From: Raineyella sp. LH-20
GTDB taxonomy: Bacteria > Actinomycetota > Actinomycetes > Propionibacteriales > Propionibacteriaceae
Reading direction: 5' to 3'
Length of the DNA: 64,000 nucleotides
NCBI RefSeq assembly: GCF_033110965.1
Contig: NZ_CP137003.1
Coordinates: 744,001 to 808,000 of the forward strand
Every line of letters starts with the position of its first letter. Positions within the stretch are counted from its first letter, which is position 1. A model generated the notes under the pieces. That model ran no database searches and was not told where the DNA came from. It saw only the letters and a list, made by a program, of their open reading frames with translations. Shown piece after piece: positions 1 through 10,298 of this stretch. A program made the translations under genes and the position numbers.

Positions 1-1226
1 GGCACGTTCTCCGCTGCGAGGGTCAGGGACTGGGCGAAAGTGAACTGGGTCTCGAACAACCCGCCCGGGACGGGACGCATCGGGTCCGGCGCATCGGGGA
101 GCTGGCGGGCGTAGGCAACCCACTCGTCGATCAGGATGAGGGCCGGGCCGAATTTCGTGAACAGCTCGCGCAGCAGGTTGCCGGGGTTGGTTCCCGTCTC
201 GTCGGCGTCCGCGACGATCGCGTACCCCTCCGCACCACCGAGTTGCCAGGCCAGCTCGCCCCACAGTGTGTGCACCACGGTGCCGTCGGGCTTCTGTGAC
301 GGCGTCGCCGGCGGGATCTCGTTGCCTACCAGCGCAGCTTTGCGGACGGGCTTACCCAGGACGTCGGCGTGTTCGCCGGCCAGCAGGTCCTGGACACCCT
401 GGGGGAACTCGTACAGAGAGCGTCCGGAGAACAAGTGCCACACCGCCAGCATCGAGTGGGTCTTGCCGCCACCGAACGTGGTCTGCAGGTTGATGACCGG
501 GTTGGCCGACCCCGAGCCGGAGATACGGTCGACCGCGCGGCGCAGCAGCTCCTTGAGACCGGCGGTCAGGTAGGTCCGGCGGAAGAACTCGACCGGGTCC
601 TGGTACTCGCTCGCGGCATTGCCCTGCACGGCGACCGAGTACAGGTCGGCGGCGAACTCGGCGTTGTTGTAGCGCCCCGTTGCCACGTCCGCGTGGGGCT
701 TGAGCACGTCGCGCCAGGACGGCAACGCCGCGTCCGCAGTACCGGGCAACGCCGCGGCACGCACGGCCTTGCGGGTCCGCTGCTCGAAGTCGCCACTGAG
801 GATGTCAAGGCGGGCCTTGCGGACCGCGTCCGCCTCGCGGGCTGCACCGACCGCGCGCATCACCCGCTCGATGGTGTCCAGCGCCCGTACCGCGTCGTCG
901 GGGGCGAACGGTTTGAAGTGTGCGACGTCGTTACGCACTCCGCGCAACTCACCCACGAACCCCTGCTCGGTGCGCGACAGGTGGGCATTGAACAAGTACC
1001 CGAGCTGGCCGATCGGCTCGGTGATGATGCGGAATTGGTCCTGTGGATCGGTCCGCGAGTACTCCTTACCCTCGATGCCCTTCTGAGCATCCTTCGCGGC
1101 CAGGAGCACGGTCCAGTCCTTGCCAGCGGGCACGTGCAGCGCGGTGACCCGCTCGATGTAGGGGTCCAGCACTCCCGCCAGAGACTGCAGCGCTGTGCGC
1201 ACCGCCTCAATGTTGCTCGACGCCAT
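1..1226 (-). CDS. DUF499 ATPase, N-terminal 408 residues, cut by window edge
   Basis: This is the N-terminal part of a large AAA-type ATPase of the DUF499 family, which occurs as the ATPase of BREX-like and other anti-phage loci. The start codon overlaps the stop of the upstream methyltransferase (TGATG), so the two are translationally coupled. Residues 1-130 resemble the Swt1-type HEPN domain and carry RNDVAH at 98-103, the R-x4-H signature of HEPN ribonucleases. A Walker A motif (FGGGKTHS, 251-258) and a Walker B motif (ALILIDEW, 362-369) follow. The C-terminus lies left of base 1. Family assignment is from motifs and the DUF1156 partner; whether the HEPN part is an active RNase is inference. 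Confidence 0.85.
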   Translation of the reverse strand, partial: MASSNIEAVRTALQSLAGVLDPYIERVTALHVPAGKDWTVLLAAKDAQKGIEGKEYSRTDPQDQFRIITEPIGQLGYLFNAHLSRTEQGFVGELRGVRNDVAHFKPFAPDDAVRALDTIERVMRAVGAAREADAVRKARLDILSGDFEQRTRKAVRAAALPGTADAALPSWRDVLKPHADVATGRYNNAEFAADLYSVAVQGNAASEYQDPVEFFRRTYLTAGLKELLRRAVDRISGSGSANPVINLQTTFGGGKTHSMLAVWHLFSGRSLYEFPQGVQDLLAGEHADVLGKPVRKAALVGNEIPPATPSQKPDGTVVHTLWGELAWQLGGAEGYAIVADADETGTNPGNLLRELFTKFGPALILIDEWVAYARQLPDAPDPMRPVPGGLFETQFTFAQSLTLAAENV

Positions 1227-4072
1227 CAGACCTCACCCACGAAGTCGAAGCCATCCTGAACCGCTGGACGGAGCTGAACATGACCGGCCGCTGCGGTCAG
1301 ATCCGTCCAGGATCCACCAAGCAGATTGAACAGCCGCGCGTCGTCCGGACGTGACTTTTGCGTCATCTCGTACAGGCGGTAGGCCAATCTCTGGACGGAC
1401 TCGACATCGATCTCCGGGCGAGTCCCCGCGGCGACCATGAGCTTCGCCGCTGCCTCAAGCCCGCCGTCCTCGGCGGACAGCACTCGCACGAGGTGCATCG
1501 CTGTCTCCCACACGGAGATGCTGTGGTCGGTCGCCGGGTTCCAGGTCGCCGGGAGGCTCGCAGGGGGAACCAGTTGGACCGTACTGCCGTTCTTGGTCAG
1601 CACACCGCTGTTGAGCAAGGAAGGCTCGCTGGTGCCGTACGCCTGCGAGAGACTGATGCCGTCTCCCGACGGGCCCGCGGCCCACCCGTACTGCGCATAC
1701 CAGGTGAGGCAGAACCTCGTGGTCGGATCGAGATCGCCCTCTTGCTCGGAGAGCACCTCGTCAACCACCTGGTTTATGACCGCGATCGCAGTCTTGACTG
1801 ACATATCCGAACCGTCGTTCTCCACGACGCCCTCGTAGCGGGAGAAGACGCCCATCCCAGGACCGATTGTCGCCTGGGCGAGGTCCACCGGGGCGATTGC
1901 TACCTGGCGCATCTTCTCCAACGCGCGGGGCAGCTCGCGCTTAAGCGTGGCGACGAACCCACGGCGGGAGGTTCGGCCTGCGGCCATATGGCGCGGACGT
2001 AGCACGAGGACGATAGACGAGGCGAGTGCGCTCGTGCCGGAGGCGATCATGCGGTTGCCCAGTTCCGTCCGCATCGGCCAGGTGGCCGTGATCGACCAGC
2101 CCCCACGGATCATTCCCTCAAGAATCGAGGCCCACCCGGTGTTACTCAGGCCCTCCGAATCAAGATCTGTCTGTTTGAATGCGTAGAACACCGTGATAGG
2201 AAAGTCGTCTGACGCCCCCTCGCGTGCGTGGGCAAAGACGTTCTCGAACCCTGTTTCGAAAAACCGCTTCGCGCCATCGCGTCCGTTGTGTCGGTGTGGG
2301 TTGGCGACGAGTTCTTCAGCCTTGGGCACGAGCATCGACGCAAACAAGCGCGGTTGGACTTCGCGGAGCGAACGACGTAGCCAAACGTAGAAGAAGTCTG
2401 AGAGATCCGAATATCCGATGTTGTCGTAGTACGGGGGGTCAGTGCTCACCACCAGGCCGCGATACTCCCGGGTAGCGGCATCGGCCTGGTCAGCATGCCC
2501 GGGCTCGCGAGCCGGAGTGTTTTCGAGGGAACGACAGACCCAATTGAGGTCCTCCAAGAAGTCCCCTGATGACCCACCGAACGGATTTGATTCGGCGAAG
2601 TCCCACGCCATGGGGATTTGCTGTCGCGCAAATAGGCCGCGAACTGCCTCCATTTTCGGGCTACTGTCCCACGAGTTCAGGGCGTTCGACTTGTTAGTCG
2701 TACGGCTGATCGCGAAGGCGAGGTATGTGGCGACAGCGTCCGCATAGGCCTCGGCGCCAGCGCCGCCGTCGGCGAGGCGATCACTAGACGGCAGGCCAGC
2801 AGCAAGCGCGTCTTCGACGACCTTCGCTCGTGCCTCGCCGACGAGGTCGCTGAGACTCGTGAGCGATGCCAACTGGCGCGCAGTGAAGAGGTCGGAGAAC
2901 TTGGCGAAACCGTAGATCGTGATGGTCTGGTTACTGTTGGGGCTCAAGCTATGGGGAGGCAGCAATCCAGGCGGACCGGAGACAACGTCCTGGGTTTCCG
3001 CTGCACGGTTGTCTGCGTCAGTCGGCGCGAGATAGACGCGCCGACGCGCCCCCTCAGCGACAACTGTCATCAGTCTCGCCGAAAGCCTGCCTGCCCGCCC
3101 TTCGGAGCGTACGTAGTTCAGGTCCGCCGTCGCTCCACAGGAAACACAGATAGCCCCAGTGCGCTTGACGGTTCCGTCGTTCTTCGCGGCGGGCGCGCTC
3201 CCCTTGTCGTGGCCGATGGTGAATTCGATGCGGCGCCCGCCGGGTGCTGCGGGGTCCTCCACCACAGCGGGGACGACGTACGCCTCTTTGCCCTTCTTCT
3301 TGCCAAGCCACCACGAGCGCACAAGGGGCATCTCAATGCCACACGCCGGGTTGGGGCACGTGACGGTCCGGGCCCAGATCCAAGCGATCGTCGTCGCCGT
3401 CGTCTTCTTGCCGGTCTCCTCGTCAACGACCTCGGCGTCGGGATACAGATGGCCGATGCGCTCCTTGGCCTGCTCCCGCATCCACGCTCCGTAGCGGCGC
3501 ACGTCCTCGGCGAGTCCGGTCGCGCGCGGCCACGGTCCGAGCGTGTTGGCTGCGGCCGGGAACACGGGCGGCCGGCCGGCGAACTTAGGCGGAATCTCGA
3601 TGAGCGCCTTGTTGATCAGGACGGCCACGGGGTTCAGGTCGGATGCGTGCGCCTCCAGGCCGAGGCGCTGTGCCTCGAGCGGGATCGTGCCCCCGCCTGC
3701 GAACGGATCGAGGATCGCGGGCGGGTTGCCGCCGGTGGACTTGAGGATCTCCTCGTGCGCCTCACGCATCAGGCCCGCGTCATTGACGTTCTCCCACTTG
3801 ACCAGGCGCCGGATGAGGTTGTGCAACCGCTCGCGCTCAACTGTCTGCTGTTCCTCGGTCAGTGACGGATCGGAGGACGGGTCGTCGACGAGTTGGGCGA
3901 AGAGCACCGCGCGCGCTGCCGCGAGCGGTCGGCGTGCCCACCACAGATGCAGTGTCGAGGGGTGGCCGTACCGGATCGACTTCTCGCGGGCGGACTCGGC
4001 ATTGATGTCCTCCAGCGGGATCGACACCTCGATCAGCTTCTTGCGGATCGGGGCGTCGGATGTCGTCGTCAT
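1226..4072 (-). CDS. DUF1156 DNA methyltransferase (N6-adenine/N4-cytosine type)
   Basis: A 948-residue protein. Its first 60 residues match the DUF1156 signature (IEVSIPLEDINAES, then HPSTLHLWWARRPLAAARA). An SAM-binding motif I follows (DPFAGGG, 122-128, and SDLNPVA, 144-150), with the catalytic DPPY at 545-548. This DPPY arrangement is typical of amino-methyltransferases that modify adenine or cytosine N4. Between the motifs lies a split zinc-ribbon-like set of cysteines (C239/C244 and C309/C312). DUF1156 enzymes pair with DUF499 ATPases, as in the type 3 BREX core, and the next gene here is such an ATPase, overlapping by one base. No PglZ-type phosphatase is visible in the window, so the system type is open. 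Confidence 0.9.
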   Translation of the reverse strand: MTTTSDAPIRKKLIEVSIPLEDINAESAREKSIRYGHPSTLHLWWARRPLAAARAVLFAQLVDDPSSDPSLTEEQQTVERERLHNLIRRLVKWENVNDAGLMREAHEEILKSTGGNPPAILDPFAGGGTIPLEAQRLGLEAHASDLNPVAVLINKALIEIPPKFAGRPPVFPAAANTLGPWPRATGLAEDVRRYGAWMREQAKERIGHLYPDAEVVDEETGKKTTATTIAWIWARTVTCPNPACGIEMPLVRSWWLGKKKGKEAYVVPAVVEDPAAPGGRRIEFTIGHDKGSAPAAKNDGTVKRTGAICVSCGATADLNYVRSEGRAGRLSARLMTVVAEGARRRVYLAPTDADNRAAETQDVVSGPPGLLPPHSLSPNSNQTITIYGFAKFSDLFTARQLASLTSLSDLVGEARAKVVEDALAAGLPSSDRLADGGAGAEAYADAVATYLAFAISRTTNKSNALNSWDSSPKMEAVRGLFARQQIPMAWDFAESNPFGGSSGDFLEDLNWVCRSLENTPAREPGHADQADAATREYRGLVVSTDPPYYDNIGYSDLSDFFYVWLRRSLREVQPRLFASMLVPKAEELVANPHRHNGRDGAKRFFETGFENVFAHAREGASDDFPITVFYAFKQTDLDSEGLSNTGWASILEGMIRGGWSITATWPMRTELGNRMIASGTSALASSIVLVLRPRHMAAGRTSRRGFVATLKRELPRALEKMRQVAIAPVDLAQATIGPGMGVFSRYEGVVENDGSDMSVKTAIAVINQVVDEVLSEQEGDLDPTTRFCLTWYAQYGWAAGPSGDGISLSQAYGTSEPSLLNSGVLTKNGSTVQLVPPASLPATWNPATDHSISVWETAMHLVRVLSAEDGGLEAAAKLMVAAGTRPEIDVESVQRLAYRLYEMTQKSRPDDARLFNLLGGSWTDLTAAAGHVQLRPAVQDGFDFVGEV

Positions 4073-4167: not shown

Positions 4168-4548
4168 TCAAGCAGCGCCGCCTGGGCGGACGAGCCGCGC
4201 GATGTCAGTGGCTGCTTGTTTCATATTCTCGTGCTCCCAGACGCGGAGCACCGTCCATCCGATGGAGATCAGGTGAGCGTCGGTCTCCCGGTCGCGCTCG
4301 ACGTTGCGCTCGAGCTTGGCGACCCACCAGGCAGCGTTGGTGGCGGGTGACGTCTTGTGTTCGGGGCACCCGTGCCAGAAACAGCCGTCGACGAAGACGG
4401 CGACCTTCGCGCGGGTGAACAGGACATCGGCCCGTCTTCGGGGCATGCCCGGCAGCGGGTGGTCGACGCGATATCGAAGCCCCATGCGGTGGAGTTCGCG
4501 ACGGAGGATCAGCTCGGGCTCGGTGTCGCGTCTGGCCTGCCGGGACAT
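4168..4548 (-). CDS. vsr: Vsr-type very short patch mismatch endonuclease
   Basis: A 126-residue protein beginning MSRQARRDTEPELILRRELH. It carries the Vsr core: metal-binding Asp41 in RRADVLF, then FVDGCFWHGCPEH with His59 and His64, and the C-terminal IGWTVLRVWEHE. Vsr nicks beside T:G mismatches that arise when 5-methylcytosine deaminates. A divergent C5-cytosine methyltransferase begins 129 bases away, the usual pairing. I chose the ATG at 4548 because the longer in-frame extension runs antisense through the methyltransferase gene and has no Vsr-like sequence. The gene lies 95 bases upstream of the DUF1156 gene on the same strand, so it may head that operon. Confidence 0.9.
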   Translation of the reverse strand: MSRQARRDTEPELILRRELHRMGLRYRVDHPLPGMPRRRADVLFTRAKVAVFVDGCFWHGCPEHKTSPATNAAWWVAKLERNVERDRETDAHLISIGWTVLRVWEHENMKQAATDIARLVRPGGAA

Positions 4549-4677: not shown

Positions 4678-5853
4678 ATGCCGCGCCCGATGATGGCGGC
4701 CGAGCCCGACTCTGTGGTCCGCACCCTCGACCTGTTCGCCGGTGCGGGCGGCCTCACGACAGGTCTGAGTCTCGCTGACGGCCTGAAGATCCTGCCTGTC
4801 TGCGCGGTCGAGGCCGACGAGTCCGCGGCCGCAACCTACACGCTCAACCACGGCGGGAGGATCGCGGACGGTCGCGTGGTCGGCGGGACGGTCTACGCCG
4901 GCAGGATCGAGGACTGGCTCGCTGATAACGCGGAGATCGACGTCGACCTTGTCGTCGGCGGCCCGCCCTGTCAGGGGTTCTCGACGCTCGGCAAGCAGGA
5001 TGCGGACGACAAGCGCAACGTCCTCTGGCGCAAGTACGCAGAGGCCGTCCATCGATCGGCCCCGCGCTACTTCGTCCTGGAGAACGTTCCCGCGTTCCTG
5101 ACCTCACCGCAGTGGGAGGTGTTCCAGGACGAGTTGGAGTCCGGGCTGCTCGCGGACTACGCGATCACGGCCGGCATCCTCAACGCGGCTGATTACGGGG
5201 CTGTCCAGGCGCGCAAGCGAGTCATCGTCATCGGGCATCGCAGGGATGTCCCCGATCCTGGCATGCCGGTGAAGACCCACGCGCATCACCACCGCAAGCT
5301 CGAGGAGATCTTCGAGGACATCCCCGACAAGGTTGACCGCGTCGGCGTCCCGGACGGGACGATCTGGTACGAAGGAACCGAACGTCCCGGCGCGTTCTCC
5401 ACTCGACAACTCCATTTCGGGCGCTACTACACCGACCTGTCGCTGAGGCGATTTGCGGCGATCCCGCGCGACGGGAGCAGGTTCAACCTTCCCGACGAAC
5501 TGCTGTCCCCGTGTTGGCGCAAACATCGGACTGGTGCCGGTGACGTCATGGGACGGATGCACCTCGACAAGCCGTCGGTGACGATCCGCACCGAGTTCTT
5601 CAAGCCCGAAAAGGGTCGCTACTTGCACCCGACCGAGAACCGCGTCATCACGCACTACGAGGCAGCCCTGATCCAGGGATTCCCGGAGAACTACCAATGG
5701 GTCGGCACGCGTGAGGAGATCGCAAGACAGATCGGGAACGCCGTGCCGATCCCGCTGGGCCGGGCAATTGGTCGCCAGCTTCTGGCGGCATTCCGGCAAG
5801 GCCGAAGCCCCTTAGACTGCGAGGCGCCACACGTTTCCTCCGAATTTCGTTGA
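4678..5853 (+). CDS. DNA (cytosine-5-)-methyltransferase
   Basis: A 391-residue C5-methyltransferase. It shows motif I DLFAGAGG (18-25), motif IV GGPPCQGFS with the catalytic Cys98, motif VI ENV (135-137), motif VIII QARKRV (177-182) and the C-terminal motif X GNAVPIPLG. The stretch between motifs VIII and IX is the target-recognition region, so the recognised sequence cannot be read off. ATGs at 4678, 4690 and 4693 are all possible; the first is taken. It is divergent from vsr and convergent with the AIPR gene. In such islands the enzyme can protect host DNA or belong to a composite restriction system. Confidence 0.93.
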   Translation: MPRPMMAAEPDSVVRTLDLFAGAGGLTTGLSLADGLKILPVCAVEADESAAATYTLNHGGRIADGRVVGGTVYAGRIEDWLADNAEIDVDLVVGGPPCQGFSTLGKQDADDKRNVLWRKYAEAVHRSAPRYFVLENVPAFLTSPQWEVFQDELESGLLADYAITAGILNAADYGAVQARKRVIVIGHRRDVPDPGMPVKTHAHHHRKLEEIFEDIPDKVDRVGVPDGTIWYEGTERPGAFSTRQLHFGRYYTDLSLRRFAAIPRDGSRFNLPDELLSPCWRKHRTGAGDVMGRMHLDKPSVTIRTEFFKPEKGRYLHPTENRVITHYEAALIQGFPENYQWVGTREEIARQIGNAVPIPLGRAIGRQLLAAFRQGRSPLDCEAPHVSSEFR

Positions 5854-5965: not shown

Positions 5966-7801
5966 TCAGGAAACACTGGTTTCGGTGAGCCCCAGGACGA
6001 CATCAGCAACGCGAGCCGTGAGACCTTGACGCTTTGTAGCATCCCTCGACGACATATTCTCCTCTACCGAGAATGAGTCGAGAGCAGACGTAACGCAACG
6101 ATATGCCGAGTCTAACCGTTCTTGACTAATCGGCCTCTTCGCGACCTCATCCCTAGAAACATCGGCCACATCTCGCCACGACTGCGGTGCCTTGCCGACG
6201 AGACGAGTAATATAGGCAAATGCCACGAAGTAGGAGATGTGCTTTCTTTGCCAGTAGGTCATCGCACCCTCAAGGCCATGCAAGTAGTCGTCGACTGCAC
6301 GCATGAGTACAACACAGGCATAATATACTTCTATATCCGCCTTCGGGTCAAAAGCGCGCTTGTAGCGTGAGTCTTCAGCCAGAAGTGAATTCGGCTTACC
6401 TCGGGCGACTTCTGGCCCGCCGTAGGCAATCGAATAGACAGCTTGTCCGAGATACGGAATACTTACGATCCTTCCTGGATCTCGACCAAGATTTCGGTGG
6501 AAACCTTTTCTGCGATCGTAGTACAGCCCCTTCGTTTCGAAGTACATCTCGATCCTGCGCTGAACCTCGTCCGTCGCCCTCAAGGAAGCATCCGCAACCG
6601 GAGTCTGGCGATTCGTCGCTCGGATTATCTTGTCTCGAACTCCTGCATCGCTTTCGACAATAATCCGGACTAGCAACTGACGCTGCTCGCCAATCTTTTC
6701 TTGAGCGTCGCCAGAGACGAACCACCGAGCCACGTTATGTGAAGTTTGTAAACCGTTGACGATCTGAATGTTCTTCATTGCAATCGTCTTGCCGGCGCCA
6801 TGCGCCTCGTCACACAGGATAGTCACACCATTGTTAAGCCACCAGAATTCCGGACTACCTGAATCCTCAAGAGAGGCATAGATCTCCTTATTTACCGCCA
6901 CCTCACCCTGAAAGTCTCGAACATTAGCCTCGAAAAGATGCCTACGAATTCCTCCATCTTCATCAAGAATCAAATTTGCATAGTTCGACAGCCTCACCAA
7001 AGCGATGTAAGAATTTCCGCTAAGGATCAGCTCCGAGCACTCGAGTTGGTGCGTAGGGTTCGAGCGGCGATTAAACCTTGCCAACAACTCGTCTGCACCT
7101 AAGAAGTCCGCCTGGACTTCGGATGAAGGTAGGCGCTTGAGAATCTCTTCCCGCAAAGCCTCTGACCTCAAGCTGACATTCGGAGAAATCCTTGAGACGT
7201 CGCCTCTGGAAATTATGTGCACCTGTACTGAAACACTCGGACGCCGGGTAAGGAGGTTGCGGTAGGCCTTCCGAAAGATATCCAACTGCTCCCGCACAGC
7301 CTCGTTCAGTTCACCTTTCAGTAGATCTATGTCTGCTGCCAGGTCAAGCGCCCGGGGCAAGATCGAGTAGAGCCGAGAGATAGAATCCTGCTTGAACGAG
7401 GTCGATTTCTTCGCCTGGATCACCACCAGAACTACCTCGATACCCTCTGGGGCCTTACGCGCCTCTGACTGATCCTCTACAAACCTGTGGTCTGACTGGG
7501 CAACGGTGCCACCGATTATGGTGAAGACGGAATCAATGCCACCGTCATCGCTCCCATCAACTATACCCATTTGAATCTCGTCAAGATTTGCATCATATTG
7601 ACGCAAAAGCAGCCAGGAGGTAAATAACTCCCAGGCGTCACTTTCGGGAGTGGTGGGTAAATTGGTATTTCGCCAGTCGGTGAAGACGGCTGAAATAAGA
7701 GTCTCGGCCCCGGACACACTTACCTCTCGAGTAAATAACTGAGGACGCCAGCTTGCGTCGTTCTTCTTCAGCATCCTTCGATTCGGCGCTGCGTCCAGCA
7801 T
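5966..7801 (-). CDS. AIPR-family abortive-infection protein with Mrr-like nuclease signature
   Basis: A 611-residue protein. The AIPR (abortive phage infection resistance) core shows WLNNGVTILCDEA at 321-333 and IQIVNGLQTS at 345-354. The N-terminal third has a pattern expected of a PD-(D/E)XK or Mrr-like nuclease fold: DGSDDGGIDSVF (Asp90), a hydrophobic strand and Gln129-Ala-Lys131 in VVIQAKKS. AIPR genes are known neighbours of C5-methyltransferases and Vsr endonucleases, as here. The ATG at 7801 follows GGAG at seven bases. Base composition is clearly lower in GC (33/60 and 28/60 in two lines counted, against 42/60 in a typical sugar gene), which suggests transfer. Nuclease activity is inference. 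Confidence 0.85.
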   Translation of the reverse strand: MLDAAPNRRMLKKNDASWRPQLFTREVSVSGAETLISAVFTDWRNTNLPTTPESDAWELFTSWLLLRQYDANLDEIQMGIVDGSDDGGIDSVFTIIGGTVAQSDHRFVEDQSEARKAPEGIEVVLVVIQAKKSTSFKQDSISRLYSILPRALDLAADIDLLKGELNEAVREQLDIFRKAYRNLLTRRPSVSVQVHIISRGDVSRISPNVSLRSEALREEILKRLPSSEVQADFLGADELLARFNRRSNPTHQLECSELILSGNSYIALVRLSNYANLILDEDGGIRRHLFEANVRDFQGEVAVNKEIYASLEDSGSPEFWWLNNGVTILCDEAHGAGKTIAMKNIQIVNGLQTSHNVARWFVSGDAQEKIGEQRQLLVRIIVESDAGVRDKIIRATNRQTPVADASLRATDEVQRRIEMYFETKGLYYDRRKGFHRNLGRDPGRIVSIPYLGQAVYSIAYGGPEVARGKPNSLLAEDSRYKRAFDPKADIEVYYACVVLMRAVDDYLHGLEGAMTYWQRKHISYFVAFAYITRLVGKAPQSWRDVADVSRDEVAKRPISQERLDSAYRCVTSALDSFSVEENMSSRDATKRQGLTARVADVVLGLTETSVS

Positions 7802-7828: not shown

Positions 7829-7867
7829 GTGTCACAGCGCTCGCACGCCTTCGGCTCGCTCTGACAC
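7829..7867. other. Inverted repeat upstream of the AIPR gene
   Basis: GTGTCACAGCG at 7829-7839 pairs with CGCTCTGACAC at 7857-7867 at ten of eleven positions around a 17-base loop. It lies 28 bases upstream of the AIPR start and includes the stop of the exonuclease remnant. It could be a terminator for transcription from the right, a regulatory hairpin, or a leftover of the junction event. Confidence 0.4.
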
Positions 7868-7990
7868 GCGGTCCCCAAGCAGCCAGCCGGTGTCGTCCAC
7901 GTGCGCCGTCGCGATCTCGCCGATCCGGTCGTACCCGCTCGCGTTCAACCCGGTCGTCTGCAGATCGACCATCGGATAGCCGTTGCTCAC
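7832..7990 (-). pseudogene. Remnant of a DnaQ-like exonuclease, N-terminus only
   Basis: A GTG-started 52-codon ORF whose first 40 residues line up without gaps with the start of the intact exonuclease at 8952-10181. Over residues 4-39, 24 of 36 are identical (shared stretches DRI, HVDD, TTG and LLG). It breaks off after RV, and ten unrelated residues run to a TGA inside an inverted repeat. The catalytic Glu of the first exonuclease motif is Gln here (VDLQTTG against VDLETTG), so even the surviving piece would be inactive. It looks like a decayed duplicate of the neighbouring gene, cut where the defence island begins. Confidence 0.8.
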
Positions 7991-8058
7991 CGTGCCCCCA
8001 CGTTATCGACGCGGGTTTTAGCGGCCCACAGAGGAGTGCGGGCTCACTGCGGCGGTGA

Positions 8059-8412
8059 TCACATTGAGAGCCCGCCATTCCCGAGCAGCAAGACTTGTCC
8101 CAGGAGGGACGTGATCAGCCCGACGTACATCGGGTTGCGTACGTAACGGTTGAAGCCCGAGACCACGAGCCGCTCGGTGGGCGCCAGCGGCACCGGCGTA
8201 CCGCCGGCCTTCACGAACTCGGCGAAGGCCGACACGGTGGGCACCATCCCCCCGACGATCATCGTCGCGCCGAGGACGCGCATCGCCCTCCATCCGGCCA
8301 CCGGGCGCTGGAACTTCCACCGGGTGATGGCCCAGGGCAGCAGGCCGACGACCGTTCCGGGAGCAGCGATGAAGAAGACGATGCTGATGGCGGTCGCCGG
8401 GGCCCTCTTCAT
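8059..8412 (-). pseudogene. Truncated isoprenylcysteine/phospholipid methyltransferase-family membrane protein
   Basis: A 117-residue ORF starting MKRAPATAISIVFF after a good ribosome site (AAGAAGG, eight bases). It has an N-terminal membrane segment, further hydrophobic stretches and the family hallmark GFNRYVRNPMYVG near residue 93. Family members normally continue about 50 residues past this motif, with another membrane region and a conserved Glu-Pro SAM-binding tail. Here the reading ends abruptly at GNGGLSM, with no tail in the same or neighbouring frames. I read it as 3'-truncated, probably by the event that left the exonuclease remnant next to it. A short functional variant is less likely. 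Confidence 0.7.
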
Positions 8413-8507
8413 CGGACACCTTCTTCGCGAGGCGGGATCTGTTGACCATCGTAGGCACGGGATGCCACCTCGGGCGTCCGAGATTGCCACTCACCTACCG
8501 TGGAGCC

Positions 8508-8873
8508 ATGAAGGCCTTCGGCCCGACGCGGGTCCCCGACACCGTGCCCCGACCCGTCCTGGTGGTCGCCCGGACCCGTCTGCGATCCGGCTACCGCCGC
8601 GCCGGTTCGGTGCGTGGCGTCGTCATGCTGGCGGACTCGGCTCCCGGCCTACTGCTCCCCTGGCGGCGGCGCCGGCTGGTCGCCCGTCCCGGGTCGTTCC
8701 CCGTCGTCGGCCGCTCCCATCGACTCGACCTGGGCACCATCGACCGGGTCACCGCATCCTGGTCCGACCGGGAACGGTTCGACACCCTCCAGCGCGCGGG
8801 CCGGGATCCTCGATGGGCCCGGTGGACCGCCGACGGCATGCGCGAACGTCATGAGGACGACCGCCGGGCGTGA
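8508..8873 (+). CDS. Hypothetical protein, 121 residues
   Basis: An arginine-rich soluble protein starting MKAFGPTRVPDTVPRP, with no signal peptide, membrane segment or motif that I recognise. The ATG at 8508 is preceded by GTGGAG at a short distance. The DNA has the GC-rich third positions of real genes in this window, and it fills the gap between the truncated methyltransferase and the convergent exonuclease. There is no homology-based support, so a non-coding assignment remains possible. Confidence 0.45.
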   Translation: MKAFGPTRVPDTVPRPVLVVARTRLRSGYRRAGSVRGVVMLADSAPGLLLPWRRRRLVARPGSFPVVGRSHRLDLGTIDRVTASWSDRERFDTLQRAGRDPRWARWTADGMRERHEDDRRA

Positions 8874-8951: not shown

Positions 8952-10181
8952 CTACCGCTGGGCGAGGCTCTCCAGGATCCGCCCGAACGTCTCCTCCCCC
9001 ACGATCGGGATCCCGTAGTCCCGCGCCTTCCGGGCCTTGCCGCTCAGCGAGTCCGGATCGGCTGCGATGACCAGTTTCGTACGCTTCGTGACGGCGCCCA
9101 CCTCGAGCCCCGCCTGACCAGCCACGGCGATCCACTCCTCACGTGGCCGCTGCATGTCGCCGGTGAAGACGACCCGGTCGCCGGGCTCCAGGCGGAACTC
9201 GGGTCGACACGCCATCGTGTCGCTGCCGTGATCATGGACCGCGGCCAGCGCCACATCGGCGTCCGCGGCGGCCAGCCCGAGCATCTGCGCGATCGCCCGG
9301 ATGTTCTCGTGCTCGGCCGGCGTCACCACACCATCGGCCCACGCCGCCACCGCGACCGACGCGAGATACGTACGGTGCACCTCGCGGACCTGCGTTGCGG
9401 TCAACCCCAGGTCCTCGGCGACCTGCAGCAGCAGGCTCTCCTCGTGCAGGCTCAGCGAAGCGTCGAGCAGGGCCCGGTCCAACAGCTCCAGGTAGGCGTC
9501 GACGTCCGGGCTCTGCGACCGCGGCAGCCGCGTCGTCAGCCGGTCGACCCATGCCCCGGGACGGCGGCGCTCACACGCGCCCCGCTGCACCAGCGCCACC
9601 GATCCGTGCGCCGGCGACACCGGCCAGGCGTACGACCGGGTCTCCTGCAGAGTCTGCTCCCAGCTCGGGTCCACGGTGAGCTGGTCCAGGTAGACGCCGA
9701 GGAGCGCGGCGGTCGCCCGGGCATCCCCGAGAGCCGAGTGCGCGCCATCGAGTGTCACTCCCGCCGCAGCACAACACGATTCGAGCCTGCGGGGCACCCG
9801 GGGCAGGAAGACCCGAGCCCACTCCATCGTGCAGAGCCCGCCGAGCGGCGTGGGCAGGTCGTAGCCGGCCCGTCGCAACTCGACGGTGAGGAAGTTCAGA
9901 TCGAAGCGCGCATTGTGGGCGACGACGGTCCGCCCGGCCAGGTCCTCGATCAGCATCGGCGCAAGGTCGGCGAACGTCGGCGCCCCGAGCACGTCACCGG
10001 CTGCGATGCCGTGGACACTGACCGGCCCGACGTCCCGCAACGGGTTGACCAGGGTCGACCACTCCCCCAGCAGCCGGCCGACATCGTCCACGTGCACCGC
10101 CGCGATCTCGACGATCCGGTCACAGCCCTTCGGATTGAAACCGGTCGTCTCCAGATCGACCACCACATACCCGCCACGCAT
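8952..10181 (-). CDS. DnaQ-like 3'-5' exonuclease with C-terminal BRCT domain
   Basis: A 409-residue protein in three parts. Residues 1-170 form an RNase T/DNA polymerase III epsilon-type exonuclease: VDLETTG (Asp9, Glu11), VVAHNARFDLNFL, and the HSALGDARA motif giving the closing His and Asp. The middle is helical and resembles the TerB-like segment found in such actinobacterial proteins (WADGVVTPAEHENIRAIAQM). The last 80 residues are a BRCT domain (DRVVFTGDMQRPREEW, then TKLVIAADPDSLSGKARKA). It probably trims DNA ends in repair. The start at 10181 follows AGGGGGG. A decayed copy of its N-terminus lies at 7832-7990. Confidence 0.88.
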   Translation of the reverse strand: MRGGYVVVDLETTGFNPKGCDRIVEIAAVHVDDVGRLLGEWSTLVNPLRDVGPVSVHGIAAGDVLGAPTFADLAPMLIEDLAGRTVVAHNARFDLNFLTVELRRAGYDLPTPLGGLCTMEWARVFLPRVPRRLESCCAAAGVTLDGAHSALGDARATAALLGVYLDQLTVDPSWEQTLQETRSYAWPVSPAHGSVALVQRGACERRRPGAWVDRLTTRLPRSQSPDVDAYLELLDRALLDASLSLHEESLLLQVAEDLGLTATQVREVHRTYLASVAVAAWADGVVTPAEHENIRAIAQMLGLAAADADVALAAVHDHGSDTMACRPEFRLEPGDRVVFTGDMQRPREEWIAVAGQAGLEVGAVTKRTKLVIAADPDSLSGKARKARDYGIPIVGEETFGRILESLAQR

Positions 10182-10298
10182 GATCCCCCCTGATCTCTCG
10201 GCAGGGATGCTAACGACGGACGGCATACGTCGGGCCGACTGAGGCAGGCATCACATCACGTACGCCGGCGCGCTGATCAGCAGCAGGCGGGGCCGGAG

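Follow-up and report, generated by a model that had tools for sequence, protein, structure and literature searches.

Two truncated genes beside a Raineyella defence island: a probable composite scar of cargo turnover in a chromosomal hotspot

Two truncated genes lie side by side at the edge of a putative defence island in the chromosome of Raineyella sp. LH-20, and the question they raise is whether they mark the point at which the island was inserted or are the remains of another process. They occupy positions 7829-8412 of the stretch of 64,000 nucleotides that was analysed (the window; negative coordinates lie outside it), in a genome that consists of a single contig of 3.63 Mb (G000). The original prediction had taken them for the boundary scar of an island that interrupted a resident methyltransferase gene. 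The comparative analysis described below points instead, with a probability that we put at roughly 0.78, to a scar of composite origin, left by the turnover of cargo within a defence hotspot of the chromosome.

The locus was compared with its counterparts in three other genomes of the genus (G001, G002 and G003) by means of blastn synteny; as the four genomes represent separate species, no same-species empty site was seen. On the left side all four share a block that comprises a metallophosphoesterase, a UvrD-like helicase, a ParA-type ATPase and its partner gene (-13.1 to -7.87 kb). On the right side the homology common to all four restarts at 8492, i.e. 80 bp past the start of the methyltransferase fragment and just ahead of the start codon of a conserved open reading frame (ORF; 8508-8873, plus strand; core flank 8492-8873). 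Between these anchors, G000 carries 16.4 kb that are not common to the relatives. In G001, G002 and G003 a ResIII-DUF3427 helicase adjoins the ParA block; in G002 and G003 the protein has about 1030 residues and includes a PLD domain, in G001 the open frame has 720 residues, and the combination of PLD, ResIII and DUF3427 domains would suggest a role in defence. No orthologue of this helicase was found in G000 (best match 30% over a part). The emptiest form of the slot is that of G003, in which the helicase ends less than 100 bp short of the conserved ORF, and in G002 the slot also holds an intact exonuclease gene, which lies left of the conserved ORF and is oriented as the exonuclease stump in G000. 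The filling differs in each of the four genomes, which bears out the earlier suggestion that the site has been used more than once. With its conserved flanks and differing, defence-related contents the locus has the make-up of a defence hotspot, and the island and the two stumps alike are cargo of its variable slot.

In having a fixed slot between conserved genes, species-specific defence genes and remnants left behind, the locus resembles bacterial defence islands and hotspots with cargo turnover. Unlike in those systems, the boundaries are here defined by synteny alone and the hallmarks of an integrase-type genomic island (an integrase, and ends marked by a tRNA or direct repeats) were not found: there was no tRNA at the slot junctions, no target-site duplication at the slot ends above the level of shuffled sequence, no terminal or direct repeat between the slot ends, and the scanned island genes included no integrase. 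The edges of the slot are partly fluid, in that variation is also seen right of the conserved ORF. The conserved ORF itself is single-copy in three of the genomes and doubled in G003 (L096; contig C20, 304265-310236), where the copies flank about 5 kb; in G000 it has 121 codons and is without a partly hydrophobic internal stretch of about 60 residues that is present in the G003 copies. Further to the left, about 18 kb of genes at -32.7 to -14.3 kb (L090/L062), which look catabolic by eye, are found in G000 and are missing there in G001 and G002.

The island extends from about -7.8 to 7.8 kb, i.e. it continues outside the window. Read from -7.8 kb, its genes encode a Z1 protein, a DUF4420 protein, a HATPase, a DUF499-type ATPase, a DUF1156/HmaB methylase, Vsr, a cytosine methylase and an AIPR/AbiU-type protein. 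The first three are located outside the window. Within it lie the end of the gene that we take, from reading its sequence by eye, to encode a DUF499-type ATPase (to 1226, minus strand), followed by the genes for the DUF1156/HmaB methylase (1226-4072, minus), Vsr (4168-4548, minus), the cytosine methylase (4690-5853, plus) and, as the right-most intact gene of the island, the AIPR/AbiU-type protein (5966-7801, minus; Pfam AIPR, 2.9e-29; PADLOC AbiU, 2.6e-162). A core of Z1, PD-(D/E)XK and cytosine methylase genes together with AIPR has been described as a 'type II' putative defence system reminiscent of mzaABCDE (PMC9523054; the PD-(D/E)XK gene is printed there as DUF4220, the Pfam name being DUF4420). 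The island has this composition, with a Z1 protein of 940 residues, DUF4420, HATPase, cytosine methylase and AIPR and with matches to the MzaB, MzaC and MzaD models, and departs from the published system in that it encloses a DUF499-type ATPase and DUF1156 (HmaB) pair. This pair occupies L062 17805-20000 and window positions 1-4072, and no HmaA helicase was found alongside it. The AIPR gene is absent from the other genomes of the genus and may have arrived separately, since its GC content (52%) is far below that of the remaining island (64-67%) and of the chromosome (about 70%); its closest relatives, at 39% identity, are too distant to define the end of the island.

Next to the AIPR gene lies an open frame of 52 codons (7832-7990, minus strand), which had been predicted to be a truncated copy of a neighbouring exonuclease, and so it proved. 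Its codons 1-39 (7872-7990) are homologous to the exonuclease (E 5.9e-10, 56%, in a protein search of the whole G000 genome), and at the nucleotide level the stretch 7872-7999 aligns without gaps to 10063-10190 of the intact gene (128 nt, 77% identical). The match stops at 7872, and the final 13 codons (7832-7871), past the junction between exonuclease and island at about 7871, are without homology. Where the exonuclease reads VDLETTG the stump reads VDLQTTG, by which the DEDDh catalytic Glu is replaced by Gln; the motif D-x-E-T-T-G is invariant in 10 homologues. The intact gene (8952-10181, minus), which had been placed 1 kb away, a distance that holds for its nearer end, encodes a DEDDh domain, a TerB-like stretch and a BRCT domain (Pfam RNase_T and BRCT), has an orthologue in G002 (81-82%) and matches the PADLOC candidate defence protein PDC-S48, a DEDDh exonuclease with BRCT, along its entire length (527.7 bits). 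The stump, in contrast, retains the first 39 of 409 codons, so that 90% of the protein is gone, and no longer has the catalytic Glu, which makes it a former member of the PDC-S48 family by N-terminal homology and no longer a working one. Codons 40-409 of a second exonuclease copy were not found anywhere in the G000 genome by protein search. The intact gene, which in G000 lies right of the conserved ORF, is probably cargo too, because it is itself a defence candidate; we know of no anti-phage test of the PDC-S48 family.

The substitutions in the stump are those expected of neutral decay, with loss of codon structure. Relative to the two intact orthologues (G000 and G002) it has 15 private changes, which are spread over the three codon positions as 8/4/3 and of which 13 are nonsynonymous and 2 synonymous, versus 3/4/12 for the differences between the orthologues themselves (Fisher p 0.017). 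One could suppose that the stump arose as a partial copy of its intact neighbour, made within the G000 lineage by a local duplication across the conserved ORF. The two copies have the same orientation, are 2.2 kb apart and share 77-80% of their nucleotides, and the doubled conserved ORF of G003 implies that duplications do happen in this slot. The distances, however, speak against it: of 117 sites the stump differs at 27 from the G000 gene and at 30, i.e. about equally, from the G002 gene, whereas the two intact genes differ from each other at 19. Fast neutral drift could account for part of this excess, and the 117-nt tree allows the stump to be sister to the G000 gene, to the G002 gene or to both; on balance we regard a local duplication as unlikely and favour turnover of a copy that once resided in the slot. 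A further notion, which we offer tentatively and hold to be rather doubtful, is that the slot selects for exonucleases of the PDC-S48 type: the left copy decayed while a second, intact one became established right of the conserved ORF, so that a near relative replaced the broken copy and the latter would be a datable fossil of a defence gene since lost.

The second truncated gene (8059-8412, minus strand) encodes 117 codons of a PEMT/ICMT-family methyltransferase (Pfam PEMT, E 3.3e-6 for the same frame with an upstream start, 8059-8490). That it lacks its C-terminus, as had been proposed, is evident from the orthologue in G001, which has 165 codons and is 79% identical across codons 1-112; full-length relatives also occur in G003 and G047. 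The fragment breaks off after codon 112 or thereabouts, so that about 53 C-terminal codons are gone, among them a conserved WYEEPTL...YGxxYxxYR motif, and without this EE...YxxYR region it is not a working member of the family. The last 53 codons were found neither near the island nor elsewhere in the G000 genome, where the search returned only a paralogue at 40%. The fragment still looks coding-like in its substitutions: its private changes by codon position are 6/5/15, those of the intact G001 gene 3/5/12, and the difference from the pattern in the stump has a p value of 0.025.

The way in which the two stumps are joined is informative. On the minus strand, the methyltransferase starts at 8412 and its homology to the G001 gene ends at 8078; there follow a junction (about 8066-8077) at which codon 112 or so is fused to DNA from upstream of the exonuclease, this upstream (promoter) region itself (7991-8065), the stump down to 7872, the island junction and the start of the AIPR gene at 7801. 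Within the spacer, 27 nt are 85% identical to the DNA upstream of the G002 exonuclease and lie at a near-equal distance from the start codon, a match as high as which was not reached in any of 5000 dinucleotide shuffles; judged by this match, the spacer is the exonuclease's own upstream region. The last 5 or so codons of the methyltransferase fragment read into this region, which also supplies their stop codon. A reading of the spacer as the end of an insertion sequence was considered and dropped once the spacer had been accounted for in this way; among 392 genomes of the order it had a single 26-bp match, which lay in coding DNA that seemed unrelated and which we took as chance. No relatives of the scar turned up among plasmids or phages.

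These junctions bear directly on the proposal that the island was inserted into a resident methyltransferase gene and in one event truncated both this gene and an adjacent exonuclease copy. Both stumps do adjoin the island at its AIPR end, and from 8492 onward the DNA is core, so that the part of the original prediction that places a boundary here stands: the right end of the variable slot is where the stumps are located. An insertion into the methyltransferase is another matter. An uninterrupted methyltransferase had been expected at an empty site, but none of the relatives has one at the slot: the gene is absent from G002, in G003 it is found on a different contig, and in G001 it is intact, inverted and about 10 kb away, left of the metallophosphoesterase and beyond the ParA block. 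A plain insertion would have left two halves of the gene; the methyltransferase C-terminus and the remainder of the exonuclease are neither at the far end of the island nor elsewhere in the genome, so that nothing was simply split by insertion and deletion or replacement has to be invoked. Moreover, the methyltransferase end touches exonuclease upstream DNA and not the island, and the decay patterns of the two stumps differ. A single insertion is therefore, in our judgement, distinctly improbable, more so than a local duplication. Relatives that lack the island and carry the same truncations, which would have marked an older, unrelated scar, were not seen among G001-G003.

Between the AIPR start and the exonuclease stump lies the inverted repeat that was said to end the remnant (GTGTCACAGCGCTCGCACGCCTTCGGCTCGCTCTGACAC, 7829-7867). 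It exists, in imperfect form (10 outer pairs and a short inner stem), and is not stronger than expected by chance: folding gives a z-score of -1.27, a level that 20 of 200 shuffles also reach; it has no T-run or terminator tail, and neither a second copy in the genus nor a partner near the other end of the island was found, and we give it no weight. That the repeat or the stump ORF is functional, as a terminator, an AIPR operator or a short regulatory peptide, is hardly credible, for although the repeat precedes the AIPR start codon by some 28 bp and the 52 codons are open, the substitutions are neutral, the catalytic residue is lost and the hairpin is no better than chance, without T-run or conserved copies.

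Turnover of cargo in the slot would then have proceeded as follows. An exonuclease of the PDC-S48 kind would once have been situated on the left of the conserved ORF, where the sister species G002 has it to this day, and a deletion would have spared no more than its first 39 codons and the region upstream of them, after which the stump drifted without selection. A later rearrangement would have set the methyltransferase gene beside this stump, with the loss of the last 53 codons of that gene, and the Z1/DUF4420/cytosine-methylase/AIPR island would have come to occupy the remaining slot, where the relatives carry the PLD-ResIII-DUF3427 helicase. The truncations of the two genes seem to date from different times, since the exonuclease stump lost its codon structure and the methyltransferase fragment kept it; on these patterns, which comprise only 15 and 26 substitutions, the exonuclease copy would have been inactivated early, about as long ago as the species diverged, and the methyltransferase would have been cut much later. 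As to mechanism, the lack of a tRNA, a target-site duplication or a terminal repeat at the junctions and of an integrase among the scanned genes leads us to infer illegitimate or homologous recombination.

The process as such is modest, ordinary turnover in a defence hotspot, of which the locus provides a small and clean case of slot recycling, with four species and four fillings. Two stumps of apparently different age would indicate that cargo is lost by deletion in separate steps, and they call for the caution that a truncated gene beside an island need not be the target of its insertion.

In an alignment search of genome contigs, the relatives of the exonuclease reach about 60% identity, and among these only L154 and L155 have two separate exonuclease matches. 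A frame-broken N-terminal piece of the same kind of exonuclease is present in G038, from another family of the order (L068; 2372929-2373160), and, given this piece, exonuclease stumps of such a kind may recur.
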